Assembly: GCA_904830895.1 (NCBI GenBank)
Contig: LR882958.1
Coordinates: 3,987,501-4,051,500, forward strand
DNA from: Planktothrix rubescens CCAP 1459/22
GTDB lineage: Bacteria > Cyanobacteriota > Cyanobacteriia > Cyanobacteriales > Microcoleaceae
Length of the DNA: 64,000 nt
Direction of reading: 5' to 3'
Shown: piece after piece, positions 8,601 through 27,811 of the stretch
Layout: every line of letters begins with the position of its first letter
Numbering within the stretch: the stretch's first letter is position 1
The notes under the pieces: model-generated
Database searches by the model: none
Told to the model about the DNA's origin: nothing
The model's input: only the letters and a program-made list of their open reading frames with translations
Translations under genes and position numbers: made by a program

Positions 8601-10382
8601 TATATGGTACCTGCTTTCTTGATGCTCTTAGACTCTTTTCCCCTGACTCCTAATGGAAAAGTAGATCGTCGTGCTTTACCGATACCGGAAATTGATCTCC
8701 ATGAATTAGAAAATTATATTGCCCCCAGTACCGACACAGAAACAATCCTCGCTCAAATTTGGCAAAGTGTTTTGGGACGGGAAAGAATTAGTATTCATGA
8801 CAACTTTTTTGAATTAGGGGGAGATTCAATTATTGGGATTCAAATTGTGGCTAAAGCCAATCAAGCCGGACTAGGAATTACCCCAAAACAGTTATTTAGC
8901 CATCAAACTATTGCCCAATTAGCAACAGTAACTGAGAAAGCTCCTGTCACTCAAATCATGCAGGATTTGGTTAGCGGTCAAGTTCCTTTAACGCCGATTC
9001 AACAGTGGTTTTTTGAGCAAAATTTACCCGAACTCCATCACTTTAATCAATCGGTATTCTTAGAAGTTCCGGCCCATCTACAGCCGGATTTATTAAAACC
9101 AGCCATTGCCAAATTACTGTATCATCATGATGCTTTACGTTTACGCTTTGTGCATAAACAAGGACAATGGCAACAGTATCACAGCGATGATTGGGAGTCT
9201 TTTGGTTTTGAAGTCATGGATTTATCCCCGATGTCTTCGGGTGAACAATTGACCACAATGGCAGAAATTTCAGAGGCTCAACAGCGCTCCCTAAATTTAG
9301 AAAAAGGCCCCTTAATTTCGGTGGTTTTCTTTCAATTAGGTGACGCAGGAAGATTGTTAATTATTATTCATCATCTAGTAGTCGATGGGGTTTCCTGGCG
9401 CATTTTCCTAGAAGATTTACTCACCAGTTACCACCAATTAGAAACCGGAAAACCTCTGGAATTACCCCTAAAAACTAGCTCCTTTAAACATTGGGCTGAG
9501 GAAATCCAAAATTATGCTCAAAACCCAGAACACAAGTCTTACTTAGATTACTGGTTAAAGCAGGATTTTCCCTCAATTCCCCATCTTCCCTTGGATTATC
9601 AAACTGATATCAAGTCTAATACCGTTGCTCATGCGAGAACGGTCTCTTTTACCCTGGGCGAAGAACAAACTCGCTTACTATTGCAGGATGTTCCTCAAGC
9701 ATACAACACCCAAATTAATGATGTATTACTGACGGCTTTAGTACAAGCTTTTGCTCGTTGGACAGGGTTTTGTGATCTTGTTATTGACATTGAAGGTCAT
9801 GGCAGGGAAAATGTAATCAACTCCCTGAGTTTGTCCCGAACTATTGGTTGGTTTACCAGTATTTTTCCTGTCATTTTGACTTTAAAAAATATTGACCATC
9901 CTGGTGAATGTCTCAAGTCAGTTAAAGAGCAATTACGACAAATTCCAAATCGGGGAGTTGATTATGGAATTGGATATTATCTTAACCCAGATTTAACCAT
10001 TCAATCCCGTCTAAGAAGTTATCCGAAACCAGAAATCAGCTTTAATTATTTGGGGCAATTTACTCGCCCACAAATAGGTTCTGTTGACTGGAAATTTTCT
10101 AAAGAAGCGAGTGGTTCTATTCATAGTCCCTTGGGGCAACGTTGCCATTTAATTGCGATTAATGGACTCGTTGTTGATGGGAAACTAGAAATGGAATGGC
10201 AATATAGTGAGAATTTTCATCAAAAAACAACGATAGAAAATTTAGCTAATGCTTATCAAGAATCTTTAGAAATCCTAATTAACCATTGTTTATCAGGAGA
10301 CGGAGGTTATACTCCATCGGATTTTCCCGATGCTGATCTCAATCAAGCAGAATTAGATGAACTGCTTTTGGAACTAGATTAA
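5622..10382 (+). CDS. aerB: Aeruginosin synthetase AerB, C-A-PCP-E with TubC docking domain
   Basis: NRPS elongation module adding the second residue and epimerising it to the D form. Domains (1586 aa): TubC-like N-terminal docking domain 1-50; C about 75-500 with intact HHIIIDG; A about 525-1020 (YTSGSTGKPKG, NAYGPTE); PCP with LGGDS near 1067; E about 1120-1560 with HHLVVDG, EGHGRE and NYLGQ motifs intact; acidic helical C-terminal tail that probably docks to AerG. Aligning by eye with GrsA gives specificity residues D-A-W-T-I-A-A-V-C, a Phe-type code, so D-Phe is the best guess rather than the common D-Leu. Lies between aerA and the accessory genes on the same strand. Confidence 0.92.
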   Translation: MKVVEFLSYLNSLEIKLWLEEDKLKYQAPQGVMTAEIKQEIGTRKSEILDFLSREAQPSPNSPESVIIPVSRDEDLPLSFAQQRMWFLYQMDSQNPAYNECPAIRLTGNLNIDILEQSLNAIIQRHEILRTTFPMVEGKPIQKIAPFLKVNLLKVELKDLPIEKVEEIVAQELQKPFDLTQSPLLRFTLFDLGYEDYILVPVIHHIIIDGWSKGILFKELSSFYQALLSNSTASLPELTIQYADFAVWQRQWLQGEVLANQLNYWKKQLAAAPPLLELPTDKPRPPIPSFRGSSICFKIDSDVTEKLKSLSQKSGVTLFMTLLATLNTLLFRYSSQKDILVGTPTANRNRQEIEPLIGFFVNTLVMRNSLEGNLSFSELLQQVRNVVLESYANQDVPFEQVVDGLQIERSLSYNPLFQVMFALQNTPLTALDIPGLRVKSMAVENVRVKFDLTLILEEIETDQGTYLEGYWEYNGDLYTAERITRLMGHFQTLLKGIVKNPQQKVGELPLLTDPEKQQILVEWNQTQVPYQDHQCIHQLFEEQVAKNPDAVAVIYEQECLTYQQLNQKANQLAHYLQSLGIKTEELVGVCVERSPLIIIGILGILKAGAAYLPLDPSYPPNRLIYMVEDSGVSVVLTQEKLANTLQLENLQKVYLDQDWPIISQQSSDPPVSETQAKNLAYVIYTSGSTGKPKGVLLAHKGVCNLATQQRKIFNIKAQSRVLQFASFSFDASVWEIFMALGSGATLVMGDSDSLLPGENLLNLLKKQKITIATLPPSALAVMPTDELPDLQSLIVAGESSSADLLKKWCQNRHVFNAYGPTESTVCTTIALIKDPQEKPPIGKPLGNFQVYILDPCLNPVPIGINGELYIGGEGLAKGYLGQPELTNSKFISNPFNDDPASRLYKTGDIVRYLADGNIDFMGRIDHQIKIRGFRIELGEIETVLSQHPQVQEGIVIAREDELGVKRLSAYVIPVTQQLTRQELRQFLQDKLPNYMVPAFLMLLDSFPLTPNGKVDRRALPIPEIDLHELENYIAPSTDTETILAQIWQSVLGRERISIHDNFFELGGDSIIGIQIVAKANQAGLGITPKQLFSHQTIAQLATVTEKAPVTQIMQDLVSGQVPLTPIQQWFFEQNLPELHHFNQSVFLEVPAHLQPDLLKPAIAKLLYHHDALRLRFVHKQGQWQQYHSDDWESFGFEVMDLSPMSSGEQLTTMAEISEAQQRSLNLEKGPLISVVFFQLGDAGRLLIIIHHLVVDGVSWRIFLEDLLTSYHQLETGKPLELPLKTSSFKHWAEEIQNYAQNPEHKSYLDYWLKQDFPSIPHLPLDYQTDIKSNTVAHARTVSFTLGEEQTRLLLQDVPQAYNTQINDVLLTALVQAFARWTGFCDLVIDIEGHGRENVINSLSLSRTIGWFTSIFPVILTLKNIDHPGECLKSVKEQLRQIPNRGVDYGIGYYLNPDLTIQSRLRSYPKPEISFNYLGQFTRPQIGSVDWKFSKEASGSIHSPLGQRCHLIAINGLVVDGKLEMEWQYSENFHQKTTIENLANAYQESLEILINHCLSGDGGYTPSDFPDADLNQAELDELLLELD

Positions 10383-11325: not shown

Positions 11326-13536
11326 ATGAATCACATTAAGATTAAGTCGGAAACCCTAAATAAACTGTTCATTAATATAGGACAACAGCAAGGAGAAATT
11401 GTTTATAGAGGGCGTAAACTTGCTCAAAAATCTCAAAAAAATTGGGATGAATTTATCACCACTTTACTAGAAGGAAAAGGAAACCCACAGATAGGGAAAG
11501 TCTATCAAGATTTATCTCTAGCTGTAGAACAGTATAATCAAGAAGGTCAAAACCCCGTTGCTTTTGAAGTTGTTTATCATTACTTTGTCGCTAAAATTAT
11601 CCGTTTAATCAATCTTAATCCAGCAGATTTTCCTCATCAATGGTATCTAGCTTGTAAAACAGAAGATATTTCCCATCCAGGAGATTTTATTACTCTGAAA
11701 CTGTTTCAAGAACCGCTAGTCATTGTCCATCAAGAAGACGGAACAATTGGATGTTTTCTTAATGTTTGTACTCACCGTCAATCTCCTGTTTTTGAAGGAA
11801 AAGGATGTGCGAGTCGTAATAAAAAAGTCCTTTGTCCCTATCATGGATGGGCGTTTGATTTAGACGGAAATTGTCAAAATGCCCCAGGAGCAAGTCGAGG
11901 GGAATTTGGCAGTAATTTTGACCTTAATCTATATGGGTTGCAAGAAATAGAAGTCAAGCAAGATGGGGAATATATTTTTGTCAAATTATTGCCAACCAAA
12001 CCAGAAGAAAATGAGACAAAGAGAGATTATAATTCAGAAAATATCGGAGTAGCAATTGCCAACTTACTAGACCAAGTAAGTCCTGGTTATGCAGAAGGAA
12101 AAAGTGCTTCACTTCCTGAAGCTATTCGTCTCTGGCTAAAAATTGGTTATTTAGAAAAAGAGTTAACTTTTCTCGTAGCATCCCTTAATCATTCTCCAGG
12201 AATTATTTCTGAAGATGTTAATTATTCCCAAGAAACTGAATTATTGATTGAGTCTTTAGTTAGAGAACTTAAGCAAGCAATTTTGATGGTAGAGAATCAA
12301 GAGTTAACGGTCAATTTTGGGGAAATTTTAGAGCGTATTGGACTACCGCAAGAAATGGAAAAACCAACGAAATTTAATCCCTTTGAAGATTCAGAGTTAG
12401 GGGGAGAAAATGACTCAGAGGATGAACTAGCACAATTGAATACAGAACCTTTGCCTATTTGGATTTATGGGGATACAGCCCTATTTACCCTAGAAATTGA
12501 CCATTTAATCGCTCCTACTTGGCAATTTGTCTGTCATATAAATGAAGTTCCCGAAGCAGGAAACTTCACTTGGTTAGATATTATTGGCGAGAGAGCTTAT
12601 GTTATACGAACCAATGAAGGAGAATTATTTGCTGGAAGACTTAAACATCTAGATGAGCGCAATAATTCTCCTAATTTCAGTTTACCCAATTACGGATTAG
12701 AACCGATTGATATTGATATTTTTTATGGCTTTGTTTTTATTCGTTTCAGTTGGGAAGGAGCCAGACTCAAAGAACTTTGGTATCAAGCGGATTTACTAAA
12801 ACCCTATAACCTCGAAGCCATGCAGCCTATTAATGGTCTTGGACGGTACGATATTAATGTCGAAGTTGACTATAAATTATTGTGGGAAAACTTTTTAGAA
12901 GACTACCATTTCCCCATGATGCACAAAGGCTTAACCCGTCGCTTTAAACTATCGAGTGATTGCGAAGGAATAAACGGGATGATTATTCCCATGAAAGACC
13001 CTCCATCTCCCTATTTAAACCCTACTGAACGCAAGTATTATGACTGTGCAAAAAGTTTAGGCAGACATTCTTGGGAACATGAAACCAAATTACAAGAAAT
13101 AGCAGCACAAACCCAATCACTCCCAGAAACTTTGTGTTATTCTGCTTTTTGTTCCATGTCATCTCAAGAAGAGATGCCCATGCCCTTTTCTTTGAGTATC
13201 TTTCCTGAACACGTTCAAACATTTTCCATAGTGCCAGGAGGAGCTAGAGAAAGTCGTTTTCACGTCCGCAGTTATGCCCATCCAGTTGACCCAAATTCTC
13301 CCCATAGTCAAACCATAAAAGATGCCCAACTGGCTAATATTCAACTGTTGATTGAATCCTTACACGAAGACATTAGAGTTAACTATATTACCCAGGATAG
13401 TGTATCATCTATATTGTTTGAAAAAAAGGGAATATTTAGCATTGCCGAGTTGGATGTTGCTAAATTTCAACAAGCCATTCGTCTTAAATTACCTATGACC
13501 AAATTTCAAAATAGAACTTTCTTAGTAAATCATTAA
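11326..13536 (+). CDS. Rieske-type non-heme iron oxygenase with duplicated, degenerate second Rieske domain
   Basis: Putative oxygenase (736 aa, versus 350-450 for usual Rieske oxygenases). Residues 100-222 form a Rieske domain with ligands C148-x-H150 and C170-x-x-H173. Residues 225-380 are a charged linker region. Residues 385-475 again resemble a Rieske beta-domain (TWQFVCHINEVPE, GFVFIRF) but the cluster-binding loops are gone. Residues 505-736 are the catalytic domain with ENFLEDYHFPMMH (H528 and H533) and a later Asp in HEDIRVNY that may complete the iron site. No reductase or ferredoxin gene is adjacent. In the aer cluster it likely hydroxylates or desaturates an intermediate, perhaps of the guanidino amine; substrate unproven. 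Confidence 0.8.
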   Translation: MNHIKIKSETLNKLFINIGQQQGEIVYRGRKLAQKSQKNWDEFITTLLEGKGNPQIGKVYQDLSLAVEQYNQEGQNPVAFEVVYHYFVAKIIRLINLNPADFPHQWYLACKTEDISHPGDFITLKLFQEPLVIVHQEDGTIGCFLNVCTHRQSPVFEGKGCASRNKKVLCPYHGWAFDLDGNCQNAPGASRGEFGSNFDLNLYGLQEIEVKQDGEYIFVKLLPTKPEENETKRDYNSENIGVAIANLLDQVSPGYAEGKSASLPEAIRLWLKIGYLEKELTFLVASLNHSPGIISEDVNYSQETELLIESLVRELKQAILMVENQELTVNFGEILERIGLPQEMEKPTKFNPFEDSELGGENDSEDELAQLNTEPLPIWIYGDTALFTLEIDHLIAPTWQFVCHINEVPEAGNFTWLDIIGERAYVIRTNEGELFAGRLKHLDERNNSPNFSLPNYGLEPIDIDIFYGFVFIRFSWEGARLKELWYQADLLKPYNLEAMQPINGLGRYDINVEVDYKLLWENFLEDYHFPMMHKGLTRRFKLSSDCEGINGMIIPMKDPPSPYLNPTERKYYDCAKSLGRHSWEHETKLQEIAAQTQSLPETLCYSAFCSMSSQEEMPMPFSLSIFPEHVQTFSIVPGGARESRFHVRSYAHPVDPNSPHSQTIKDAQLANIQLLIESLHEDIRVNYITQDSVSSILFEKKGIFSIAELDVAKFQQAIRLKLPMTKFQNRTFLVNH

Positions 13537-13636: not shown

Positions 13637-14245
13637 ATGTTAAAGTTTTCGATGGAATTTTGTTATCCCCAACCTGATGTAAAAACTTTAATCGTTGGCA
13701 CTTTAGGGCCAAAAGAAACCAGTAGTGAACAGACCTTAAATTATCTGATTACTCAATGGCAAGCGGAACAAATTTCTGTTACCAGTCATTTATTTGATAC
13801 CTTTACAGAGTTGAAAGAATCTTTGCTCCAAGATCAGGTGGATTTGGCTTTGGTTCCCCATGCTTATGAAAGAGTTAATGATTTTTATATGGAACCCAGT
13901 TTAAAACTAGGTTTTGTTTTTACCTATCCCACACCAGTTTATGGATTAGCCAAGCGCAAAAATGAAGAATTAGTTTGGGAAAATTGCACCCTAGTTACTC
14001 ATCCCGCTCCCTTTCCTTTACTCCCTTATTTATTACCCGGCTACCCCAATCAAAAAAATATTAAAGTGGAGTTTGTTAATTCTACAAGTGCAGCCGCTAT
14101 TCAAGTTAAGCAAGGGTTAGCCGATTTAGCAATCACCAATGAGAATGCTCTCAAAGAAAATGATTTAGAGTTTATTGCAGAATATGGGAAAATTGAGATG
14201 AGTTGGTCTATTTTTCATAAAAAAGGAACAGTCCATAGAGAATAA
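13637..14245 (+). CDS. aerD: Prephenate decarboxylase AerD (BacA-like)
   Basis: First step of Choi (2-carboxy-6-hydroxyoctahydroindole) formation: non-aromatising decarboxylation of prephenate, as for BacA in bacilysin synthesis. The 202-aa protein has the prephenate-dehydratase-like fold signature GTLGPKETSSEQTLNYL near the N-terminus. It is followed at short spacing by aerE and aerF, giving the same BacA-BacB-BacC gene order as bacilysin clusters. ATG at 13637 is used; MEFCYP ten codons in is an alternative start that is less supported by length. Assignment is firm at family level from motif and context. Confidence 0.88.
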   Translation: MLKFSMEFCYPQPDVKTLIVGTLGPKETSSEQTLNYLITQWQAEQISVTSHLFDTFTELKESLLQDQVDLALVPHAYERVNDFYMEPSLKLGFVFTYPTPVYGLAKRKNEELVWENCTLVTHPAPFPLLPYLLPGYPNQKNIKVEFVNSTSAAAIQVKQGLADLAITNENALKENDLEFIAEYGKIEMSWSIFHKKGTVHRE

Positions 14246-14292
14246 ATAATTAAGAATTAATTTTTGAGAAAAACTTAATTAAGGAGATCAAA

Positions 14293-14934
14293 ATGCCTAC
14301 ATTTTTCCCCGAAGGAAAAACAATTAATATCAATGGAGAAGTGGAGTTATTGGCATTCCAATGTCAGGATACAGTCGTCCAATTAGCCGCCATTGCACCA
14401 GGTGCTATTTTTCCCCTGCACCAACACACAGAAAGTCAAATCGGAATGATATTTAACGGCAATTTGGAAATGAATCTCAACGGGAATAAAACTGTTATTC
14501 AACCTTTAGATCATCTCTATGTTGCCGGGGCTAATGTTCTTCACGGTTCAGCTAATCTTTTGCATGAAACTATCTTAGGATTTGATGTCAAAAGAATCAT
14601 CAACCCTCCCATACAAGGAGAAGATGAACCCACAATCCTGCGCGTGACTCCCAGTGAAAATCATGCCACTGGTTTAGTTTGTCAATCTGTGACTGGTTCT
14701 TGGTTTGAGATTATTATTACTCAGATTCCTCCAGGAAAAACAATCCCTAAACATCAGTCTAGTTGCCAAAAAATGGGAATTATTCTTAATGGAAAACTTG
14801 ATGTTTATGTAGGGGGGGAAGAACAGCAACTAGCTTATGGTAATATTTACTATGCACCCCCTGAGATACCGCACGAAATATCTAATTTTACTGACGAAAC
14901 AGTATCTTTACTTGATATTTTGATTACACAATAA
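14293..14934 (+). CDS. aerE: Bicupin isomerase AerE (BacB-like)
   Basis: Bicupin protein (213 aa) related to BacB, which isomerises the dihydro-4-hydroxyphenylpyruvate made by the decarboxylase. Two cupin folds are visible: residues 1-100 with metal-ligand motif HQHTESQ and a later HGS, and residues 105-213 with KHQSSCQ and PHEI. A good ribosome site (AAGGAG) lies 7 bases before the ATG. It sits 47 bases after aerD and 28 bases before aerF. Cytosolic. Confidence 0.88.
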   Translation: MPTFFPEGKTININGEVELLAFQCQDTVVQLAAIAPGAIFPLHQHTESQIGMIFNGNLEMNLNGNKTVIQPLDHLYVAGANVLHGSANLLHETILGFDVKRIINPPIQGEDEPTILRVTPSENHATGLVCQSVTGSWFEIIITQIPPGKTIPKHQSSCQKMGIILNGKLDVYVGGEEQQLAYGNIYYAPPEIPHEISNFTDETVSLLDILITQ

Positions 14935-14962
14935 ATGTTTATACATTAGAGGACGAATAATT

Positions 14963-15757
14963 ATGGATTTAGGATTAACAGGAAAAGTTGCTTTAGTAAC
15001 AGGAGCTAGTGCAGGAATTGGTTTTGCTGTAGCCGAAAGATTAGCCGAAGAAGGCTGCCGATTAATAATTTGCGGTAGGAATGGTGAACAACTGGAGAAA
15101 GCCAGTCAATCTTTACTGAATTTTAATGTAGAAGTAATCCCTTTAATTGCCGATGTTCAAAACGAATCGGACTCGCAAAAGCTAGTAGAAAGATCCCTTA
15201 GTAAGTTGGGCAGAATTGATATTTTAATTAATAACTCAGAAGGGGCTAGTTTTTCTGGAGAATCAATAGAAGATATCTCAGATGCAGAATGGAGAGGCGT
15301 ATTTGAAGGAAAATTAATGGGCTATATTCGCATGACTAACTTAGTTTTGCCTAGTATGAAAAATCAGCAATGGGGACGAATTATTAATATTATTGGAACA
15401 TCAGGAAAAGAACCTTCTCCCCGTCTGATAAAATCAGGAGTTGCTAATGCCGGGTTAATTAACTTCACTAAAGCAGTCGCAACTGAAGTGGCTAAGTATA
15501 ATGTTTTAGTGACTGCTATTAATCCGGGTATTATTGATACACCCAGACATCGACAATATTTAACGGTGAATGCTGAAAAACAAGGTGTAACCGTGGATAA
15601 TATTCGAGCCGGAATTATGAATAATATTCCACTTCGTCGTATTGGTAATTCTGGTGAAGTAGCTAATTTAGTCGCTTTTTTATCGTCAGAATGTGCCAGC
15701 TATATCACAGGAATAACAATTCCGGTGGATGGAGGTTTATCTTCTGGAGCTTTCTAA
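14963..15757 (+). CDS. aerF: Short-chain dehydrogenase AerF, lacking the YxxxK pair
   Basis: SDR-family protein (264 aa) expected to act in the reductive part of Choi formation. NAD(P) site TGASAGIG at residues 14-21, and the NN(S)EG and PG-end motifs of a classical SDR are present. The catalytic YxxxK is absent: the aligned stretch reads SGVAN (within IKSGVANAGLINFTK), so Tyr is Ser and Lys is Asn. Other atypical SDRs share this kind of change. The enzyme therefore either uses other residues or has a non-redox role. Placement directly after aerE, with a GAGG site before ATG, supports the aerF name. Confidence 0.85.
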   Translation: MDLGLTGKVALVTGASAGIGFAVAERLAEEGCRLIICGRNGEQLEKASQSLLNFNVEVIPLIADVQNESDSQKLVERSLSKLGRIDILINNSEGASFSGESIEDISDAEWRGVFEGKLMGYIRMTNLVLPSMKNQQWGRIINIIGTSGKEPSPRLIKSGVANAGLINFTKAVATEVAKYNVLVTAINPGIIDTPRHRQYLTVNAEKQGVTVDNIRAGIMNNIPLRRIGNSGEVANLVAFLSSECASYITGITIPVDGGLSSGAF

Positions 15758-15886: not shown

Positions 15887-18800
15887 ATGGTTAACTCAAA
15901 TAATTCCAATAAAAGCAAAGATATCGAAGCAATTTATCCCCTTTCTCCCACTCAGGAAGGGATGTTATTTCATACTCTCTACAACCCAGAATCTAATACT
16001 TATTTTGATCAATTTCAATTAACATTTCAGGGAGAACTAGATATTTCTGCTTTTGAAAAATCTTGGCAACAAATACTAGATAGACACACGATTTTACGAA
16101 CCCAATTTATTTGGAAAAATCGTAAAAAGCCCCTTCAGATCGTGCGAAAAAAAGTTAAATTACCTTGGATTAATATAGACTGGAGATCCCTGTCTCAGAG
16201 CGATCAACAAACTCACCTGAATCGTTTCTTAGAGGAAGATAGACAACGAGGTGTTGAAACGGATAAAGCTCCTCTGATGCGATGTACCTTAATTCAATTA
16301 GAGAACCAAACTTATCAACTGATCTGGAGTTTTCATCACATCCTCTGTGATGGTTGGAGTTGGCCGATTCTTTTTCAAGAAATCTTCACCTTTTATGATG
16401 CGATTAAGCAAGGAAAAGAGTGTCATTTACCAACACCTCGCCCTTACCAAGACTATATTAATTGGTTACAACAGCAAGATATTTCCGCCTCAGAAACATT
16501 TTGGCGAAAAACCCTTCTGGGGTTTAGTATTCCGACTCCTTTAATTGGGGAACAAGCCCGCGAAAGGAATAATAAAACCTACAATATCCGCCAAATCAAT
16601 CTATTAGCTAAAACCACCGCCAACTTAAAATCTTTTGTAGCTCAAAACCATTTGACTCTTTCTACTTTAGTACAAGCAGCTTGGGCGTTATTACTGAGTC
16701 GTTATAGCGGTGAGGAAGATATCGTTTTTGGAAGTGTTGTCTCTGGTCGTCACCCTAGTTTATCAGGAGTAGAATCAATGGTCGGGTTATTTATTAATAC
16801 CCTACCTGCTAGGGTATTAATCCCAGAAACAACAGAATTATTACCCTGGTTACATCAATTACAAGAACAACACATTCAGCGAGAACAATATTCTTATACT
16901 CCACTGGTAGACATTCAAGGATGGAGTGAAATTCCCAGAAACGAGTCTTTATTTGAAAGCATTATCGCTTTTGAAAATTATCCTGCAACAGCAAATTTTT
17001 CCGAACTTCCTGGGGGAATAAAAATTAGTAATATTGAAGACATCGGACAAACTAATTATCCGCTTGTTTTGCGTGCTGTTCCGGGTCAAGAAATGGCATT
17101 AATCATCAATTACGAGGAAAATCGTTTTGATTTACCAACCATTGAACGGATGCTGGGTCATCTGCAAACTTTACTCGAAGAAATGGTGATTAATCCCCAT
17201 CGTTTCCCTAAAGATTTACCGATTCTTACTGAATCAGAACGGGAAATGCTGTTAGAAGAATGGAACCATACTGAATCTTTATTTCCGATTAGCCAATGTA
17301 TTCATCAATTATTTGAGGAACAGGTTGAAAAAACACCGAATGCAGTCGCAGTAGTCTATGAAAATCAACAGTTAACCTATCAACAGTTAAACCAAAAGGC
17401 GAATCAATTAGCACATTCTTTACAATGCTTAGGAGTTACACCCGATAGTTTAGTTGCGATATGTCTTGAACGATCTTTAGATATGGCTGTAGCAATTTTG
17501 GGGACTCTCAAGGCTGGAGGAGCTTGTGTTCCGATTGACACTAAATATCCAGAGGAACGAATTAATTTTATCCTGGCAGATAGTGGTACAAAAGTTGTGT
17601 TAACACAAAATTCTTGTGCTTCAATGCTGTCTCAAAATTTCTCCCATCATCTGCTGATATTAGAAGATAAATGGGATGATATTACTCAAGAATCCGATCA
17701 AAATATTACGATTGAAATCAATAATGATCATTTAGCTTATCTGATTTATACTTCCGGTTCCACAGGAGTTCCTAAAGGTGTTGCTGTCCCCCATCGCTCC
17801 CTCACCAATTTAGTTGAACACCATCGAGATCAAATGCTGACAGGAGGAGGTGTTCTTCAGTTTGCATCTTTTAGCTTTGATGTTAGCTATCACGAAATAG
17901 TTGCGGCTTGGTGTTTTGGAGGAACTTTATATATTGCTTCTGAAGATACCCGCCTAGATTTAGATAAATTAGTCAATTTACTTACAAATAATCCTATTGA
18001 AAAAGTTATTCTTCCTGTGACTTTGTGGCAGCAAATTGCCGAACTCTATGGAGCAAAACCCGATCTTTTTAAGAATTTAAAAGAGGCCATAACTGCTGGA
18101 GAACAACTGCAAATTACTCAACCGATGGTTGAAATGTTTAAAAGTTTAAAAAACTGCACCTTGTATAACTTTTATGGGCCTTCTGAAGCTGATTTAGTCA
18201 CCGCTTATCGTTTTAGCCATCAACCTGAAGAATGGCCCCTTTATCCTCCCATTGGTAAACCGGCTGTTAATGTCAAAGTTTATTTATTAGATAGTAATTT
18301 CCAACCTGTTCCTTTAGGTAGTATAGGAGAGTTATATGTTAGTGGTGCGGGACTCGCTCGCGGTTATTTTAATTGCCCAGAGTTAACCAAAGAAAAATTT
18401 ATTCCTAATCCTTTTCATCAAAATTCTTATTCATGTCTGTATAAAACTGGAGACTTAGCTCGTTATTTGTCAGATGGAAATATTGAGTTTTTAGGACGAA
18501 TAGATGACCGGGTAAAAATCAGGGGTTATAGTATTGAATTAGGAGAATTAGAAGCGGTATTAAATAAACATCCCTTCCTAAGTCAAGCTGTGGTTAAAGT
18601 CTATGGGGAAAGTGCTAGAGAAAAATATTTATGTGCTTATTTTGTTCCCCTGCAATTACAAACAATTACTATTGAACAACTGCGTCACTTTCTCCAAGAA
18701 CAACTTCCAGAATATATGATTCCTTCCGCCTTCGTCCCGATGGAATCTTTTCCCTTAACTTCTAATGGCAAAGTTGATCGGCGAAAACTCCCAAAACCCA

Positions 18801-20755
18801 CAACTAGCAGACCCGAATTAAGTCAAATTTATGTCGCCCCATCCACTCCTACAGAAGAAATATTAACAGCCATCTGGCAAGATATTTTAGGATTAACTAA
18901 AATCGGGGTCAATGACAACTTCTTTACTGTAGGGGGGCATTCTTTATTCGCGACTCAAGTTATTGCGATGACCCGCAAAGCTTTTAATTTGGAATTGCCC
19001 ATCAGAAGTCTATTTCAATCTCCTACTATTGCTGAATTAGCGAAAAAGATTGAGATCGGAAGTTATCAAGAATTAGAACAAGAAATTATTCCGATTACAC
19101 GCCAAACCTCTGATTCTGAATTAGTACCAATTTCTTTAACTCAGTTAGAGCTTTGGTTTTTCAACCAATTTTATCCCGATAATTCTGTCTATAATCTACC
19201 CTTAATTTATCGAATTGAAGGCTCACTTAACGTTCCTGTACTAGAGCAAAGCTTAAAAGAAATTGTTAAACGTCATCAAACTTTGCGAACTAATTTTATT
19301 TGTATAGACGGACAAGTTTTCCAAAAAATTTCGTCTGAACCCCGTTTTGATTTTTCAATTATTGATCTCCAAGGGTTAAGTGAAATAGAACGGGAGCGAG
19401 AATCTGAACGATTAGCATCAGAAGAAATTGCTCGAATTTTTGACCTAAAACAAGGTTCATTATTCCGAAGTAAACTTATACAATTAGCTGAAAATGACTA
19501 TCTGTTTATTGTTACTATGCACCATATTATTTCTGATGGTTGGTCTTTCGGTGTTTTGATTCGGGAATTAACCTTAATTTACGAAGCGTTTTCTGAGGGT
19601 AAACCTTCACCACTACCCCCTTTACCGATTCAATATTCCGATTTTGCCCTGTGGCAATGGCAATCTATAGAAGACAAATCATGGCAATCTCAGCTTGATT
19701 TCTGGAAGCAGCATATCGGCGTTAATCCACCGATTTTAAAATTCCCTACTGACCATCCAAGGCCCTCTAAGCTAACATTTAAGGAAGCCCATCATCCTAT
19801 TACTATTTCCCCAGAATTAACTGATGCTTTAAAAAGATTAAGCCAGCAAGAAGGCGTAACTTTATATATGACTTTGTTAGCGACTTTTAAAGCACTCATC
19901 CTTTACTATACACAACAGGAAGACATCATTGTTGGTGGTATTATTGCCAATCGTAACAGACCTGAAACACAGGATTTAATTGGACTTTTTGTGCAGTTTC
20001 TCCCCTTGTATACAAATGTAGGAGGTAATCCCAATTTTCGAGAATTACTGCGTCGAGTTAAGGAGACGAGCTTAGGATTTTATGCTCATCAGGAAATTCC
20101 TTTTATCAAGTTAGTAGAAGAATTAAAACCTATCAGAGAACCTCAATATACTTTGTTTAATCAGGTGATATTTCTTTTCCAGAATACTCCGAAACAAGAT
20201 TTAAAATTTGCCAATCTCACTCTAAAAGACCAGTTACTAAAAATATATACAGAAGCAGATACGGCAGAAAATGATTTAACTCTATCCCTCGAAGAAACTG
20301 ATAACAGCATTGAAGGAATTATATCTTATAAAGTTAATTTATTTACTACTACAAGTATAGCTAAAATGGGAGAGCAGTTTATCAAAATTTTAGAAAATAT
20401 TATTGTTAATCCCCAGGAAAAAATTATGGCTATTTCTCCTTTTTCTGAACAGGAACGTTACTCAATCAATAATTATCACTGGTCTTCACCAATTGAGGAA
20501 GTTAAATCAACTGACTTCATGAAACCACGTAATTTAACTGAAGAATCTTTGCTCAAGATTTGGCAAGAAGTGTTAAATTTAGAAGATATTAGCATTGATG
20601 ATAACTTTTTTGAACTGGGAGGAACTTCTCAAAAAGTTCTTCAAGTCATAGATAAAGTTACTAAAAAATTTCCGATTGATTTACCCCTGCGTAACTTCTT
20701 TGCTAACCCAACCTTAGCCGATTTAGCAGCAACAATTGAGCATCATATCTTATAA
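15887..20755 (+). CDS. aerG: Aeruginosin synthetase AerG (AerG1-type), C-A-PCP-C-PCP, no TE
   Basis: NRPS that should add Choi and then the terminal amine. Domains (1622 aa): C1 about 10-440, opening IYPLSPTQEGML as in C domains that accept a D-residue from an E domain, HHILCDG intact; A about 470-970 (YTSGSTGVPKG) with eye-read code D-V-H-I-I-A-F-L-V, unlike proteinogenic codes; PCP1 with VGGHS near 1018; C2 about 1075-1500, HHIISDG intact; PCP2 with LGGTS near 1580, then the end. There is no second A domain and no thioesterase. Release is therefore likely by condensation with a free or otherwise loaded guanidino amine. A strong hairpin follows at 20774. Confidence 0.9.
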   Translation: MVNSNNSNKSKDIEAIYPLSPTQEGMLFHTLYNPESNTYFDQFQLTFQGELDISAFEKSWQQILDRHTILRTQFIWKNRKKPLQIVRKKVKLPWINIDWRSLSQSDQQTHLNRFLEEDRQRGVETDKAPLMRCTLIQLENQTYQLIWSFHHILCDGWSWPILFQEIFTFYDAIKQGKECHLPTPRPYQDYINWLQQQDISASETFWRKTLLGFSIPTPLIGEQARERNNKTYNIRQINLLAKTTANLKSFVAQNHLTLSTLVQAAWALLLSRYSGEEDIVFGSVVSGRHPSLSGVESMVGLFINTLPARVLIPETTELLPWLHQLQEQHIQREQYSYTPLVDIQGWSEIPRNESLFESIIAFENYPATANFSELPGGIKISNIEDIGQTNYPLVLRAVPGQEMALIINYEENRFDLPTIERMLGHLQTLLEEMVINPHRFPKDLPILTESEREMLLEEWNHTESLFPISQCIHQLFEEQVEKTPNAVAVVYENQQLTYQQLNQKANQLAHSLQCLGVTPDSLVAICLERSLDMAVAILGTLKAGGACVPIDTKYPEERINFILADSGTKVVLTQNSCASMLSQNFSHHLLILEDKWDDITQESDQNITIEINNDHLAYLIYTSGSTGVPKGVAVPHRSLTNLVEHHRDQMLTGGGVLQFASFSFDVSYHEIVAAWCFGGTLYIASEDTRLDLDKLVNLLTNNPIEKVILPVTLWQQIAELYGAKPDLFKNLKEAITAGEQLQITQPMVEMFKSLKNCTLYNFYGPSEADLVTAYRFSHQPEEWPLYPPIGKPAVNVKVYLLDSNFQPVPLGSIGELYVSGAGLARGYFNCPELTKEKFIPNPFHQNSYSCLYKTGDLARYLSDGNIEFLGRIDDRVKIRGYSIELGELEAVLNKHPFLSQAVVKVYGESAREKYLCAYFVPLQLQTITIEQLRHFLQEQLPEYMIPSAFVPMESFPLTSNGKVDRRKLPKPTTSRPELSQIYVAPSTPTEEILTAIWQDILGLTKIGVNDNFFTVGGHSLFATQVIAMTRKAFNLELPIRSLFQSPTIAELAKKIEIGSYQELEQEIIPITRQTSDSELVPISLTQLELWFFNQFYPDNSVYNLPLIYRIEGSLNVPVLEQSLKEIVKRHQTLRTNFICIDGQVFQKISSEPRFDFSIIDLQGLSEIERERESERLASEEIARIFDLKQGSLFRSKLIQLAENDYLFIVTMHHIISDGWSFGVLIRELTLIYEAFSEGKPSPLPPLPIQYSDFALWQWQSIEDKSWQSQLDFWKQHIGVNPPILKFPTDHPRPSKLTFKEAHHPITISPELTDALKRLSQQEGVTLYMTLLATFKALILYYTQQEDIIVGGIIANRNRPETQDLIGLFVQFLPLYTNVGGNPNFRELLRRVKETSLGFYAHQEIPFIKLVEELKPIREPQYTLFNQVIFLFQNTPKQDLKFANLTLKDQLLKIYTEADTAENDLTLSLEETDNSIEGIISYKVNLFTTTSIAKMGEQFIKILENIIVNPQEKIMAISPFSEQERYSINNYHWSSPIEEVKSTDFMKPRNLTEESLLKIWQEVLNLEDISIDDNFFELGGTSQKVLQVIDKVTKKFPIDLPLRNFFANPTLADLAATIEHHIL

Positions 20756-20886: not shown

Positions 20887-21855
20887 ATGATTACCAAAGA
20901 TATTGCCATGAATAAAATAGTTCCCGTAATTGATTTTCAGCCCTTTTTTGATGGTGACACAAAGGAAAAGGAAACTGTGGCCAAACAAATCTATGAAGCT
21001 TTTGATAAAGTTGGTTGTATATATCTAAAAAATTACGGTTTTTCCCCCGATTTAGTTAACAAAGCTTTTTCTCAATCTCAGGCTTTTTTTGCTCTACCAA
21101 TAGAAGACAAACAAAAAATTGCCATGGGCAAGATGAACCCAGGATATGAGCAAGCACGAGATCAAGAGGGAAAAGATTTCAGAGAAGTATTTCATTATGG
21201 GTTAGAAAGAACTCCAGAGGAGATAAGTTCTGGTCGCTATCTGGCTACTGCTCCTAATCAATGGCCTGAAAATCTACCAGAATTTCGAGATACTTTTATC
21301 CAATTTTTCCAAGAATGTGAGAAAATGTCATGGAAGTTATTCCAAGCACTTGCTATTGCCTTAAAAGTACCGGAAACAGTTTTTACAGATGTAATTTCTG
21401 ACAGAAATTGCTATTCGTTTTTAGCTCATTACCTACCCCTGACCGAACCTATAAAGCTAAACCAAACTCGCGCTAAACCTCATTATGGTTCAGGAACTTT
21501 TGGGTTAATATTCCAAGATGACGGTAAAGGTTTAGAAATCTGTCCTCTTGGTGAGGAATGGATTCCTGTTCCTCCAATTCCTGGTACGGTAGTAGTTATT
21601 ATGGAAGATCTGATCCAAAGGTGGACAAATGATCGGCTTTATTCCACGCTGCATCAAGTTTCAATTCCAGAAGAAGACTTCTATAAGGCTCGTTCTAGGT
21701 ACTCAATTGCCTTTAAGATAACTCCTAATAATGACACAGAAATTCGCTGTGTTGAAACTTGTGTCACCGAGGATAATCCTCTTAAATATCCTCCCATTTC
21801 CGTTGATGATTATTATAAAGAGTGGGACGCGAAACACGAAAATACTTATAAGTAG
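20887..21855 (+). CDS. Fe(II)/2-oxoglutarate enzyme of IPNS-like family with HxG iron motif (candidate halogenase)
   Basis: Member of the isopenicillin-N-synthase-like 2OG/Fe(II) family (about 322 aa): N-terminal VPVIDFQPFF and a late RYSIAFK that holds the 2-oxoglutarate-binding Arg. The usual HxD iron motif (HTDYGTLTLLFQD type) reads HYGSGTFGLIFQD here, so the Asp ligand is Gly. The distal His is kept (STLHQVSIP). Loss of this carboxylate leaves room for a halide and is the hallmark of 2OG halogenases such as WelO5 and BesD (HxG). It lies 130 bases after aerG. Start at ATG 20887; ATG 20908 is an alternative. Halogenation is inference; a changed hydroxylase or inactive enzyme is possible. 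Confidence 0.75.
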   Translation: MITKDIAMNKIVPVIDFQPFFDGDTKEKETVAKQIYEAFDKVGCIYLKNYGFSPDLVNKAFSQSQAFFALPIEDKQKIAMGKMNPGYEQARDQEGKDFREVFHYGLERTPEEISSGRYLATAPNQWPENLPEFRDTFIQFFQECEKMSWKLFQALAIALKVPETVFTDVISDRNCYSFLAHYLPLTEPIKLNQTRAKPHYGSGTFGLIFQDDGKGLEICPLGEEWIPVPPIPGTVVVIMEDLIQRWTNDRLYSTLHQVSIPEEDFYKARSRYSIAFKITPNNDTEIRCVETCVTEDNPLKYPPISVDDYYKEWDAKHENTYK

Positions 21856-21897: not shown

Positions 21898-23157
21898 CTA
21901 TTTAACAGTAGGATCACAAATTTTCTGAAACTCTACCAATAGAGTTTCACTAATTTGTTCCCAAGAAAACTTGTCAACAACTCTTTGGCGTCCAGCTTTT
22001 CCCATTTCTTGACTAAGATTTTCATCGGAAAGAAGGCGTAAAATTGCTTCAGCTAGAGCATCAGCGTTACTTCTTTCCACCAATAAACCCGTTTTTTCAT
22101 CCTCGACAATTTCTGGAAAAGCACCGCTATAAGTAGCAATAACGGGTAATTCCATAGCCATCGCTTCCACTAAGGGAATTCCAAAAGGTTCATTCCACAC
22201 AGAGGGAAAGATGAAAATGTCCGCATCTTGATAATGTTCAACTAAATCGAGTTGTTCAACCGGCCCAAAGAAACACACTGAATTAGCTGCATTGGGAGAA
22301 ATAATTTGTCGCAGTTGATCACTATATTCTCCCTGGTAAAATGGAATGAGAGTTTGAACATAAGGATCTTCTGTATTGATCATTTGTATGGGTAATACGC
22401 CATATTTTCCTTCTGGCCCGATCAATTTAAGCTGTACTTGGGGATACTGCAAGATCACTTTGTTAAACGCTTCTAGTAAAATATGTAATCCTTTTTCGGG
22501 TGAAATTCTACCCACAAAAAGAAGAGTTTTTATCTCTTTCTTTTTATTTTTTTTGGCTTCATTATTAACAACAAAATGATTAATATCTACGCCATTAAAA
22601 ATTGTTTAACAAGGAACATTAGGAAATCTTGTCCGAATTTGATTGGTAATATAGTCACTACATCCAATCACAAGATCCACCGCTTTTAATTTCCGTTCAA
22701 TCATTTTAGGATCAAGTTGTGTTAACCACTCAGTCTGTAGAAAGATGACAATTTTTGCCTGTGGATTAAAAGCTCGAATTAGTGGGGAAACATGAAAGGC
22801 AAAGTTAATTTGAATAATATCACAATTCTGGGATTGCAAATCTTTTGCTATTTGCCAATAATATTTGAAGTCAGATAAAATTGAAGTAAAAAAAGGACGT
22901 TTTGCCGGAAAGATTTTCCAGTCATCTAGTACATATAATAAGCCTAATATTTTATCAATAAAGTTATTAGGAATCCTCCGATATGTAATTCCATCTTCTG
23001 AATATTCTAACTCTTGGTGATGAGCAGCTTTTGAACCATAGAAAATCAGATCATTGCCGCGAGCTAAACGAAGTGCTAACTGGTAACAGAGGATACCTGA
23101 TCCAAATTTGGGAGGTTCAGCAAAAGTCCAAACATAATCAAAGAATGCTATTTTCAT
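21898..23157 (-). pseudogene. aerI: GT4 glycosyltransferase (aerI-like) interrupted by one in-frame TAA
   Basis: Family 4 glycosyltransferase expected to glycosylate the peptide, as in aeruginosides. Reading from ATG 23157 gives 183 aa ending in RFPNVPC, then TAA at 22606-22608. The same frame continues without interruption as TIFNGVDINHFVV and on through VGRISPEKGLHILLEAF (NDP-sugar domain) and EPFGIPLVEAMA (GT4 E-x7-E motif) to 21898. Total 419 codons, the normal GT4 length, with a single stop at codon 184, exactly where GT4 enzymes have a conserved linker. One base change (for example CAA or AAA to TAA) explains it. It is antiparallel to the rest of the cluster. Readthrough or a sequencing error are alternatives. 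Confidence 0.85.
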
Positions 23158-23340: not shown

Positions 23341-24468
23341 ATGCCAGCCAAATTTTTTAAAATCCAGAGCAAAAATAAACCCTATTTCTTAAGTATTCCT
23401 TCCCTAGATGATTTTCATTATCAAGAAGCAAATACGGTTGATATTAATATTATCTTAGAAAAGCCTAATATTAGTTTATATTGCCTTGATTTTTCCAGAA
23501 AATGGGCAATTTTTGTAGAAACTGATCCAGAGGTTGATATTGATCAATTTCCTTTTTTTTATCAAGCGCAATATGACCATGCAAAAAACCTAATTGCCAT
23601 TACTTTTTCGGAATTATTAGAAATCGGAAAACAACTAGAAATCCCTGAAAATCTTGTAATTGTTTATTCAGTAGGACGCTGTGGATCAACCCTAGTTCAT
23701 TCGGCATTTAATCAGCTAGAAAATACCCTAAGTCTTTCTGAACCAGGTGTCTATGATCAGCTTGTCATTATGCGTCAATGGGATGGAAGTAATGATGCTG
23801 AAATTAGTGAATTAATAGAAAGCTGTACCAAAATATTATGTACATCCTCACGATTAGATGATCATTCATATAGATGGGTGATTAAATTGAGAAGTTATGG
23901 AATTGAGATAGCAGATCTAATCTTTAAGCATTTTCCCAAAGCCAAAATTATTTTCTTATATCGGGATACTGAAACTTGGATGAAGTCTGTTTTTCGTGCA
24001 TCTTTAGGAGAAATTCCTAATACAGTTGATTCTCTAAAAGCAATGCAAAATCAAGTCAGTCAAGTTAGTCCCCTAATTCATCAGGATGAACAGGATCAAC
24101 CCTTATCTTATCTGCAAATTTTAACCTTAGCATGGTTATCAGTCATGGAAGGTTATTTGCGACTCCATCAACAAGGAGTTTTGGCTCTAGCGATTCGTTT
24201 TCAGGATTTGATAACAGCACCACAACAGACAATTATAGAGATATTAAAATACTGTGATATACCCACTACCAACCTAACCCAAATATTTGAAGTATTGCAG
24301 AAAGATTCACAAGCTGATACTATTTTATCAAAAGCCAATCTCAACAATCAACAAGTTAAGTTAACTCAAGAAGATTTAAAGGAGATCAGAGCAACTTTAC
24401 AAGAACATTCAACCATCAAGACTTCTGATTTTATAGTCCCTAATACATTACAGCTAGGAGAATTTTGA
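23341..24468 (+). CDS. Sulfotransferase family protein
   Basis: PAPS-dependent sulfotransferase-like protein (375 aa). The 5'-phosphosulfate loop appears as VYSVGRCGSTLVH (about residues 102-114) and the 3'-phosphate motif as FLYRDTETWMKSVFRAS (about 203-219). An N-terminal region of about 100 residues precedes the P-loop. It could sulfate the aeruginosin (sulfated congeners are known) and sits between the broken glycosyltransferase and an aldo/keto reductase. Acceptor is inferred from context only; no proof that this protein acts on the peptide. Confidence 0.75.
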   Translation: MPAKFFKIQSKNKPYFLSIPSLDDFHYQEANTVDINIILEKPNISLYCLDFSRKWAIFVETDPEVDIDQFPFFYQAQYDHAKNLIAITFSELLEIGKQLEIPENLVIVYSVGRCGSTLVHSAFNQLENTLSLSEPGVYDQLVIMRQWDGSNDAEISELIESCTKILCTSSRLDDHSYRWVIKLRSYGIEIADLIFKHFPKAKIIFLYRDTETWMKSVFRASLGEIPNTVDSLKAMQNQVSQVSPLIHQDEQDQPLSYLQILTLAWLSVMEGYLRLHQQGVLALAIRFQDLITAPQQTIIEILKYCDIPTTNLTQIFEVLQKDSQADTILSKANLNNQQVKLTQEDLKEIRATLQEHSTIKTSDFIVPNTLQLGEF

Positions 24469-24531: not shown

Positions 24532-25692
24532 ATGAAATATCGTAGATTTGGACGTACAGAAATTCCCATGCCTATTTTTTCTTGCGGGGGTATGCGTTAC
24601 ATTTATGATGAGTTTAAAGAGTATCCTAAAGAACAAATTCCCCTGGATAATCAACAAAATTTAGAAGCGACCATCCGCCGCTCCCTAGAAATTGGTATTA
24701 ATCACCATGAAACTGCTCGAATGTATGGCACATCTGAGATGCAGTTAGGGGAAATTTTGCCGAAACTACCCCGTCAAAAACTGATTATACAAACGAAAGT
24801 TACACCCCAATCTGATCCTCAACAATTTCGTCATTTATTTGAACAATCCTTAGCTTATTTAGGACTAGATTATGTTGACTTGTTGACGATACATGGTATT
24901 AATTACAAACCACAACTAGATGATACTATTCGTCCTGGCGGGTGTCTTGATGTGATTAAACAATTACAAATGGAGGGGAAAGTTCGCTTTAGGGGATTTT
25001 CTACCCATGGGCCGACAAACCTAATTATCAAAACCATTGAAACCGATCAATTTGATTATGTAAATCTGCATTGGTACTATATTAATCAATTCAATTGGTC
25101 AGCAATTGAAGCCGCCAATCGTTATGACATGGGGGTGTTTATTATTAGTCCTTCGGATAAAGGGGGAATGCTTTACAAACCGCCCCAAAAATTAGTAGAC
25201 TTGTGCTATCCTCTGAGTCCGATGCTATTTAATGATCTGTTTTGTTTGAGCCATCCCCAAGTTCATACATTAAGTCTAGGTGCAGCCAAACCTTCGGATT
25301 TTGATGAACATTTAAAAGTGATTGAACTTTTAGAAAAAGCCGATGAAATTTTACCTCAAATTATAAATCGTTTGGAAACAGAAGCGATCGCTAAATTAGG
25401 CGAAAGTTGGTTTCATACTTGGAATCTTGGTTTACCTTCCTATCAAGAAACTCCTGGGGAAATCAATATTCCCGTGATCTTATGGTTAAGAAATTTAGCT
25501 TTAGCATACGATATGTTTGACTTTGCCAAAAGGCGTTACAATCACTTAAAAACTCGTGATCCCTGGTTTCCGGGTAATACGGCCGCAGGATTATCCGAAT
25601 TTGACTTAGAGCCTGATCTAAAAAACAGTCCCCATCGAGATAAAATTGTCGCAATACTAGAAGATACCCATCAGCTATTAAATATTTCATAA
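24532..25692 (+). CDS. Aldo/keto reductase
   Basis: Second aldo/keto reductase of the region (386 aa). TIM-barrel motifs: RFGRTEIPMPIFSCGG at the start, Tyr in ARMYG, Lys in IIQTKV, His in LLTIHG. The tetrad Asp appears as Glu (HHETARMYG), an unusual change. The C-terminal part (TPGEINIPVILWLRNLA) resembles the tail that in related enzymes carries Cys clusters, here without Cys. It follows the sulfotransferase by 63 bases and precedes the ABC exporter, so it is probably part of the same unit. Substrate unknown. Confidence 0.82.
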   Translation: MKYRRFGRTEIPMPIFSCGGMRYIYDEFKEYPKEQIPLDNQQNLEATIRRSLEIGINHHETARMYGTSEMQLGEILPKLPRQKLIIQTKVTPQSDPQQFRHLFEQSLAYLGLDYVDLLTIHGINYKPQLDDTIRPGGCLDVIKQLQMEGKVRFRGFSTHGPTNLIIKTIETDQFDYVNLHWYYINQFNWSAIEAANRYDMGVFIISPSDKGGMLYKPPQKLVDLCYPLSPMLFNDLFCLSHPQVHTLSLGAAKPSDFDEHLKVIELLEKADEILPQIINRLETEAIAKLGESWFHTWNLGLPSYQETPGEINIPVILWLRNLALAYDMFDFAKRRYNHLKTRDPWFPGNTAAGLSEFDLEPDLKNSPHRDKIVAILEDTHQLLNIS

Positions 25693-25816: not shown

Positions 25817-27811
25817 ATGAATGTTTCAGAAAAAAGCTCAGAGCATATCGATCTCAAAGAGGATATCAAAACTTTTAATAAATCTCTACAACAATTTTTA
25901 GGGTTTCTTCAAGTTTATTGGTATCCAAAAGAAACCCAGGATAGAGCCTTTTCAGAGATTATTCGCTCTTGGGGAATGATCTGTTTATTATTTTTATTAT
26001 TGGTGGGAATCGTTGGTTTTAATGCTTTTAATAGCTTCGTTTTTAGAGACTTAATTGATTTTACTGAATCAAAAGATTTATCTAAATTAACTCATCTAGT
26101 AATAATTTATAGTATAGCCCTTGGGAGTATGACCCTATTAACAGGGTTTTCTAAATTTCTTAAAAAGATAATTGCACTCGATTGGTATCAATGGATCAAC
26201 AATAATATTTTGAATCAATATTTTAAAAATCGGGCTTATTATCAAATTAATTTTAAAGAAAACATTAAAAATCCCGATCAACGTTTGGCTCAAGAAATTG
26301 AGCCGATCACTAAAACAACGATGAATTTTTTAACCACCTGCGTCGAAAAGTTCATGGAGATGATGGTTTTTATTGTCATTCTCTGGTCAATTTCTGAAAC
26401 CATTTCTATTATCCTGATTATTTATACGATTCTTGGCAACATTCTGTCTACCTATATTACTCAACAATTAAATAAAATTAGCAAACAAGAATTAGAAATG
26501 GAAGCAAACTATAATTATGCCCTGACTCATGTTCGTAACCATGCAGAATCCATTGCTTTTTTTAGGGGCGAAGAAAAAGAATTAAATATTATTCAGCGAA
26601 AATTCAATCAGATGATTGAAATAGTTATTAATAGAGTTAATTGGGAAAGAAACCAAGATTTTTTTAACAGAGGCTTCCAATCCATTGTTCAAATATTTCC
26701 TTTCTTAATTGTCTCTCCCTTATATATTAGTGGTCAAATTGAGTTGGGAGAAGTCAACCAAGCCAGCTATTGTTGCTATTTCTTTTCAACGGCGTTATCC
26801 GTATTAGTAGAGGAATTTGGTAGGTCAGGTGAGTTTATCAATTATATTGAACGTTTAGATAGCTTTTCCCAAGCCTTAGAAGCCGTCGGGTACCAATCTA
26901 ACCCGGTGAATACCATTAAAGTTATTGAAAACGATCATCTTGCTTTTGAGGATGTTACCTTACAAACACCAGACTTTACCAAAGTCATCGTCGAACATTT
27001 ATCAGTTTCAGTTGAACCCGGTGAAGGTTTATTAATTGTAGGGCCAAGTGGTCGAGGGAAAAGTTCTCTTTTACGCGCCATTTCTGGGTTATGGAATACA
27101 GGTACAGGGGATTTAGTGCGACCTCCCCTAGATGACATCTTATTTTTACCGCAACGTCCTTATATCATTTTAGGAACCTTGCGCGAACAGCTAATTTATC
27201 CTCAGACAACAAATCCAATTAGTGATTCAGAATTAAAAGAAATCTTGCACCAAGTTAACCTACAAAATGTCCTGACTCGAATCGAAAATTTTGATGAGGA
27301 ACTGCCTTGGGAAAGTATTTTATCTTTGGGAGAACAACAACGTCTCGCCTTTGCTCGACTGTTAGTTAATCATCCTAACTTCGTTATTTTAGATGAAGCT
27401 ACCAGTGCTTTAGACTTAAAAAATGAGGATAATTTATATAAACAGTTACAAGAAACTGGTAAGACATTTATTAGTGTCGGACATCGGGAAAGTTTGTTTA
27501 ATTATCATCAAAAAGTTTTAGAAATGTCAGAGGATTCTAGTTGGCGTTTAGTTGACATTAAAGACTATCCTGTGAGCGCAGTGTTCCCTCTTAATCCCAA
27601 CAATACAAAAGTAAGTCTTGAAACCGTAGAAATTCTGTCAGAAATTGATCAGAAAAATCATTTTTCCCATCAAGAAATACAAAAATTAACCCGTTATAGC
27701 TTAAGTACCATCAAAAATAAAGCCAGTCGAGGTCAAACGATTGTTGCTGATGATGGTTTTACCTATCGTTATGACAAAACCCTCGATCAATTAAAATGGG
27801 TGAGAATTTAG
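25817..27811 (+). CDS. ABC transporter, SbmA/ABCD-like exporter half with C-terminal extension
   Basis: Fused membrane-ATPase half transporter (664 aa) likely exporting or compartmentalising the peptide. Membrane domain about 50-350 with around six hydrophobic helices of the ABC_membrane_2 type; ATPase domain about 375-585 with Walker A GPSGRGKSS, signature LSLGEQQRLAFAR and Walker B FVILDEATSALD. Residues 590-664 form an extra small domain (SHQEIQKLTRYSLSTIKNKASRG) that looks helix-turn-helix-like and is not part of the ABC fold. Similar transporters close other cyanobacterial peptide clusters. Last gene of the cluster; probably acts as a homodimer. Confidence 0.88.
   Translation: MNVSEKSSEHIDLKEDIKTFNKSLQQFLGFLQVYWYPKETQDRAFSEIIRSWGMICLLFLLLVGIVGFNAFNSFVFRDLIDFTESKDLSKLTHLVIIYSIALGSMTLLTGFSKFLKKIIALDWYQWINNNILNQYFKNRAYYQINFKENIKNPDQRLAQEIEPITKTTMNFLTTCVEKFMEMMVFIVILWSISETISIILIIYTILGNILSTYITQQLNKISKQELEMEANYNYALTHVRNHAESIAFFRGEEKELNIIQRKFNQMIEIVINRVNWERNQDFFNRGFQSIVQIFPFLIVSPLYISGQIELGEVNQASYCCYFFSTALSVLVEEFGRSGEFINYIERLDSFSQALEAVGYQSNPVNTIKVIENDHLAFEDVTLQTPDFTKVIVEHLSVSVEPGEGLLIVGPSGRGKSSLLRAISGLWNTGTGDLVRPPLDDILFLPQRPYIILGTLREQLIYPQTTNPISDSELKEILHQVNLQNVLTRIENFDEELPWESILSLGEQQRLAFARLLVNHPNFVILDEATSALDLKNEDNLYKQLQETGKTFISVGHRESLFNYHQKVLEMSEDSSWRLVDIKDYPVSAVFPLNPNNTKVSLETVEILSEIDQKNHFSHQEIQKLTRYSLSTIKNKASRGQTIVADDGFTYRYDKTLDQLKWVRI

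Follow-up and report, generated by a model that had tools for sequence, protein, structure and literature searches.

We analysed a stretch of 64,000 nucleotides from the bloom-forming cyanobacterium Planktothrix rubescens CCAP 1459/22 (contig LR882958.1 of assembly GCA_904830895.1, positions 3,987,501 to 4,051,500 of the forward strand), called the window below. It carries a cluster (aer) for aeruginosin, a peptide that inhibits proteases, and one gene of this cluster encodes an Fe(II)/2-oxoglutarate (2OG)-dependent enzyme in which the HxD iron motif reads HxG. We consider it likely that this gene is the aerH of the Planktothrix aeruginosin cluster and that its product is a radical halogenase. 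The assignment builds on the open reading frame (ORF), the motif, its conservation, its occurrence in a single clade, the predicted fold and the gene context. The coordinates of all features are collected in Table 1.

The ORF is intact on the forward strand, with a start at TTG 20881 or ATG 20887 and a stop at 21855; counted from the ATG, the protein has 322 amino acids. Its Pfam matches to DIOX_N (9e-26) and 2OG-FeII_Oxy (2.4e-15) exceeded the curated cut-off, and an NCBIfam scan of the protein assigned no family. Among solved structures, the top relative by sequence was thymine dioxygenase (5c3p, E = 3.4e-37). In this alignment, which has no gaps near the motif, PHYGSGTFGLIFQD is aligned to EHTDYGSITLLFQD, and HYG faces HTD. 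H199-Y200-G201 occupies the HxD site and Asp is replaced by G201, the exchange of a carboxylate for Gly or Ala by which Fe/2OG radical halogenases are recognised; thymine 7-hydroxylase (5c3p), in contrast, is an HxD hydroxylase. SyrB2 is likewise without an iron-site carboxylate and has Gly or Ala there. The distal H256 and the 2OG-binding R271-x-S273, which such halogenases also keep, are retained. The sequence-only reading had noted HYG at the HxD site together with the distal His and the Arg of RYS, and the 5c3p alignment and Pfam confirmed this. It had also placed the gene just after aerG, and the gene indeed lies 131 bp downstream on the same strand. A structure model, named there as a check, gave a predicted double-stranded beta-helix 2OG fold (AlphaFold), and in structure comparison this predicted fold matched plant 2OG-dependent dioxygenases (2ODDs) such as anthocyanidin synthase. 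The model used came from a run with a 58-row alignment, and a 5-row run (pLDDT 54.4) was discarded.

Some other accounts of the motif were rejected. A flavin halogenase of the AerJ type was dismissed because the protein has no Trp_halogenase/FAD domain and Pfam matches only DIOX_N and 2OG-FeII_Oxy. An alignment error was dismissed because the motif region is gapless against 5c3p, and a chance motif or sequencing slip because HxG is common to four proteins. The genome contains no other PF03171 match, and the motifs of its three PhyH matches are HxD-like (PF03171 and PhyH were the 2OG families searched). PF04820 had no match in the genome.

Protein searches for relatives covered overlapping sets of genomes: 10 from the genus, 388 from the class (E <= 1e-40), 388 from the order (E <= 1e-60) and 386 from the phylum (E <= 1e-66). 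The motif was read at 30 of 67 places for the class, 10 of 25 for the order and 5 of 5 for the phylum, and in the paralogues of those loci. HxG was found in three genomes, namely Planktothrix rubescens, Limnofasciculus baicalensis (G571) and G596. The Limnofasciculus baicalensis protein (HRG, 60% identical) was the one relative found in a scan of a collection of genome contigs, and G596 has two tandem copies, with HYG (74% identical to the candidate) and HTG (about 60%). Pairwise identity among the four HxG proteins is 59-74%. Within the genus, the candidate protein occurs in one of ten genomes, and the one other match was a 29% identical HxD protein. The tandem pair of G596 lies inside one aer cluster (L044, 13311-15268), and its members are 61% identical to each other; perhaps they mean two chlorination sites.

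In a midpoint-rooted tree of 47 different rows (43 HxD, 4 HxG), the HxG rows formed a single clade (support 100/100). It was linked, with 98/94 support, to a group of ten HxD rows that itself had 92/90. Judging from its spread across the tree, HxD would be the older state. Of the ten neighbouring rows, eight come from a pair of suomilide-type clusters and a ninth from a different aer cluster; the tenth is G654. The eight are SuoH-type 2OG enzymes (G620, G674), a name borrowed from PMC8609519 without sequence comparison. They are the group closest to AerH in the tree and lie in aer-family clusters as well, but all of them are HxD. Each of the two suomilide-like clusters (L046-L048) holds four such paralogous 2OG enzymes. 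The viral rows of alignment A3 (58 rows), picked from the relatives found, were HxD in 56 of 56 cases. Viral contigs (L053-L056, L064-L217) are rich in distant AerH relatives, of which 205 were found and 80 kept. No close AerH relative was found in plasmid records, where all 308 matching records showed <60% identity.

Within the HxG clade, dN/dS was 0.07-0.27 (from a simple script, with some dS values saturated), and the sequences indicate that the clade is under purifying selection. It might be suspected that the enzyme is degenerate or inactive, as the adjoining aerI homologue has an in-frame stop, and the gene is dispensable because 9 of the 10 searched genomes of the genus are without AerH. 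However, the frame is unbroken, three genera share the motif region and the dN/dS values are low, and we give this explanation almost no weight.

In the window, the gene order is aerA, aerB, a 288-residue protein, a Rieske oxygenase, aerD, aerE, aerF, aerG, the candidate, a split aerI on the opposite strand, a sulfotransferase, an aldo-keto reductase and an ABC transporter. Published clusters presumably carry aerH between aerG and aerI, as the naming suggests, and the candidate has this place here. As with the AerH of Planktothrix, aerG precedes it, and the aer cluster around it also contains Rieske, glycosyltransferase and aldo-keto reductase genes. Among four Planktothrix strains in PMC6784222 (2019), one had chlorinated aeruginosins together with a non-heme iron halogenase. 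Such compounds are produced by PCC 7805 (PMC10744761; PMC6784222), and PMC4349496 described them from several Planktothrix strains, No. 406 included. Table 1 of PMC10744761 (2023) attributes halogenation of Leu at position 2 to aerH ('this study') and names aerC as the Aeap oxygenase. The same paper places the chlorine of aeruginosin 828A at Leu-2, and PMC12116083 also reports chloroleucine in 828A. PMC10143770 notes a resemblance of AerH to bacterial oxygenases and an earlier link to Aeap. The halogenase idea for AerH is already known as an annotation and a correlation (PMC6784222, PMC10744761); the examined parts of both papers contain no AerH motif, phylogeny or assay and do not mention HxG, and no AerH assay was found in the open-licence literature searched. 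The sequence-only reading had described aeruginosin halogenation as the work of the flavin enzyme AerJ, which was incomplete, as the second halogenase aerH was already in print. Its proposal of a halogenase candidate is supported by the HxG of a single clade, the apparent purifying selection, the predicted fold, the aer context and the chlorinated aeruginosins of the genus.

Chloride binding, catalysis, the target residue and carbon, and the timing on or off the nonribosomal peptide synthetase (NRPS) belong to the proposed part of the assignment. The iron would be held by H199, H256 and 2OG, and with G201 in place of Asp the free iron site would be taken by chloride. According to PMC12346261, the D/E-to-G/A change is the mechanistic substitution of 2OG halogenases and frees the halide site. 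O2 and 2OG would then give an Fe(IV)-oxo chloride, which would abstract an aliphatic hydrogen, and chlorine would be passed to the carbon radical.

In WelO5 and in amino acid halogenases of Streptomyces, Gly or Ala likewise stands in place of the iron-site carboxylate, and the chemistry corresponds to that proposed for AerH (PMC12346261). When sequences of solved structures were searched with the A1 profile, WelO5, BesD and SyrB2 were not seen among the best 60 of 79 matches, nor among the matches listed (50 in each of two fold comparisons). In moonseed, dechloroacutumine halogenase (DAH) likewise has D to G (HxGXnH), within a plant 2ODD group and from an HxD relative (PMC7170919, PMC12346261). 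However, plant flavonol synthases are the sister group of DAH, whereas AerH lies among bacterial aer-tailoring oxygenases. AerH and DAH would be parallel cases and not kin as halogenases (our tree was built without DAH).

Several points weigh against the halogenase assignment. Our equation of the gene with the AerH of the papers is presumptive and draws on gene order and enzyme class. The 'perfect correlation' of PMC10744761 covers aerC, aerI, aerL1 and aerL2, and aerH is not named in that statement. PMC4349496 (2014) supposed aerJ or mcnD behind the chlorinated Planktothrix peptides. HxG by itself does not force halogenation, as AspH hydroxylates with its iron chelated by two His (PMC10947486). 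AerH might work in the same way, with water staying at the free site, and hydroxylate or desaturate the peptide; its nearest relatives belong to aer-family clusters, carry HxD and probably act as oxygenases. Against such a two-histidine oxygenase stand the strain-wise association of the halogenase with chlorinated aeruginosins, the description of the D/E-to-G/A change as a mechanistic switch and the other fixed changes that accompany D to G. We regard it as unlikely.

These fixed changes, found in 4 of 4 HxG rows and absent from the 43 HxD rows, include G201 (Asp in the HxD rows), G206 (mostly Thr), K214 (mostly Gly), E240 (Gly or Ala), K277 (Phe) and W313. Column 314, near the C-terminus, shows the same HxG/HxD contrast with D/E, and several further columns are carboxylate-enriched. 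E240, as a new carboxylate of the HxG clade, may be a candidate iron ligand, which also counts against halogenation. If it or another carboxylate replaced Asp on the iron, the enzyme would stay an ordinary oxygenase. However, E240 is placed by the model between a strand and a helix, where relatives have Gly or Ala, next to D241, whose position is a carboxylate in 43 of 43 HxD rows. Because K277 changed together with E240, a salt bridge is as likely as iron ligation, and we think replacement of the ligand very improbable. K277 lies six residues past the 2OG-binding Arg. In anthocyanidin synthase, the Phe at this position stacks against the substrate, and K277 may accordingly point into the active site. 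E240 and K277 may pair with each other, hold the substrate or contact chloride.

The last point against a fixed halogenation target is the A domain for residue 2, which varies across the three HxG genomes. The AerB codes, read at what we take to be the GrsA positions, are DAWTIAAV in the window, DAWFLGNV in G596 and DAFFLGVT in Limnofasciculus. PMC10744761 assigns DAWTIAAV to Phe, DAWFLGNV to Leu and DAFFLGV to Ile. Therefore, Leu cannot be the constant target in all three. The window AerB is of the Phe type, unlike the Leu-activating AerB of the published chloroleucine assignment; this is a difference of product and not of enzyme family. AerH could instead chlorinate a part common to the HxG clusters, which are 2-carboxy-6-hydroxyoctahydroindole (Choi) and the Arg-derived unit. 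PMC10143770 gives aeruginosins 205A/B with chloro-Choi, which would agree with this. The first residue may differ between the clusters too, with no aerA homologue matched in the examined Limnofasciculus stretch. The structures of 205A/B were reportedly revised later to chloroleucine. Because 828A carries its chlorine at Leu-2, we prefer residue 2 by analogy as the better guess and hold a target in the shared part to be rather doubtful. Among the aliphatic targets offered by the sequence-only reading (Choi, the side chain, the amine), Choi and the amine were judged less likely than residue 2.

If AerH is a halogenase that follows residue 2, its most likely target would be this side chain, Leu in Leu-type strains. 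The Phe code of AerB in Planktothrix rubescens would then lead to a chloro-Phe variant, with the benzylic carbon as the easy site and a chloro-oscillarin-like product. Oscillarin, from Planktothrix agardhii B2 83, has the backbone Pla-Phe-Choi-Aaep (PMC10143770), and the window cluster fits this backbone through its Rieske gene (Aeap) and its interrupted glycosyltransferase homologue. NIVA-CYA406 is of the Phe type (PMC10744761), and strain No. 406 has chlorinated/sulfated aeruginosins (PMC4349496); if the two are one strain, chlorine on a Phe-type peptide already has precedent. A more specific proposal, which we put forward tentatively and at less than even confidence, places AerH as a bacterial radical halogenase in the thymine-hydroxylase/isopenicillin N synthase-like branch, with its own D-to-G switch within the aeruginosin-tailoring oxygenases, independent of WelO5, BesD, SyrB2 and DAH. 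It would chlorinate the beta carbon of residue 2 whatever this residue is (Phe, Leu or Ile), giving a benzylic chloride on an oscillarin-like peptide in Planktothrix rubescens, and the tandem copies of G596 could set two chlorines.

Table 1. Positions in the window of the candidate gene, its key residues and the genes of the aer cluster.
Feature	Position	Strand	Basis
AerH-type Fe/2OG enzyme, candidate chlorinase, 322 aa	20887..21855	+	ORF, Pfam, alignment, tree, model
Iron motif H199-Y200-G201, HxG for HxD	21481..21489	+	Alignments
Distal iron ligand H256	21652..21654	+	Invariant in alignments A1 and A3
2OG-binding R271, RYS motif	21697..21699	+	Invariant in A1 and A3
E240	21604..21606	+	In 4/4 HxG rows; carboxylate in 0/43 HxD rows
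K277	21715..21717	+	In 4/4 HxG rows; Phe in 43/43 HxD rows
aerA, loading module with A, KR and PCP domains	1160..5446	+	Domain analysis
aerB, NRPS module for residue 2, A-domain code DAWTIAAV (Phe type)	5622..10382	+	Code meaning from PMC10744761
288-aa protein without Pfam match, probably ORF3 of PMC10744761	10419..11285	+	
Rieske oxygenase, probably AerC (Aeap formation)	11326..13536	+	Pfam; role from PMC10744761
aerD, aerE, aerF (Choi synthesis)	13637..15757	+	Pfam; roles from literature
aerG, NRPS for Choi and Arg-derived unit	15887..20755	+	Pfam; homologues in five related clusters; role from literature
aerI-type glycosyltransferase, two pieces, in-frame stop	21898..23157	-	
Sulfotransferase	23341..24468	+	Pfam
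Aldo-keto reductase, probably ORF8	24532..25692	+	Pfam
aerN-type ABC transporter	25817..27811	+	Pfam

As to the neighbouring genes, the relatives of the aerI-type glycosyltransferase in L044 and L001 are undivided, and given its interruption here, the product of the window cluster may be without sugar. Wherever the 288-residue protein or the Rieske oxygenase was seen, in four clusters (including L049, L051 and L052), the two occurred together, and neither was matched in the examined stretches of G596 and G708. The 288-residue protein may be a partner in Aeap formation. Elsewhere, a 48 kb contig (C4), part of which matches Planktothrix plasmid records, carries two PhyH-type 2OG proteins near 34966 and 37684 (L059, L061) with a frame like a short-chain dehydrogenase/reductase between them, perhaps another biosynthetic locus.

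Few radical halogenases are known to work on unactivated carbons, and such enzymes are sought as catalysts. Beyond what is in print, our analysis points to a possible separate evolutionary origin of the HxG clade, which, if the halogenase assignment is true, would be a further origin of radical halogenation. It would also explain the aliphatic chlorine of aeruginosins, which aromatic halogenation by AerJ does not. With HxD relatives in the same kind of cluster, the step from hydroxylase to halogenase could be studied in bacteria, as for plant DAH, and the HxG motif could predict which strains make chlorinated variants.
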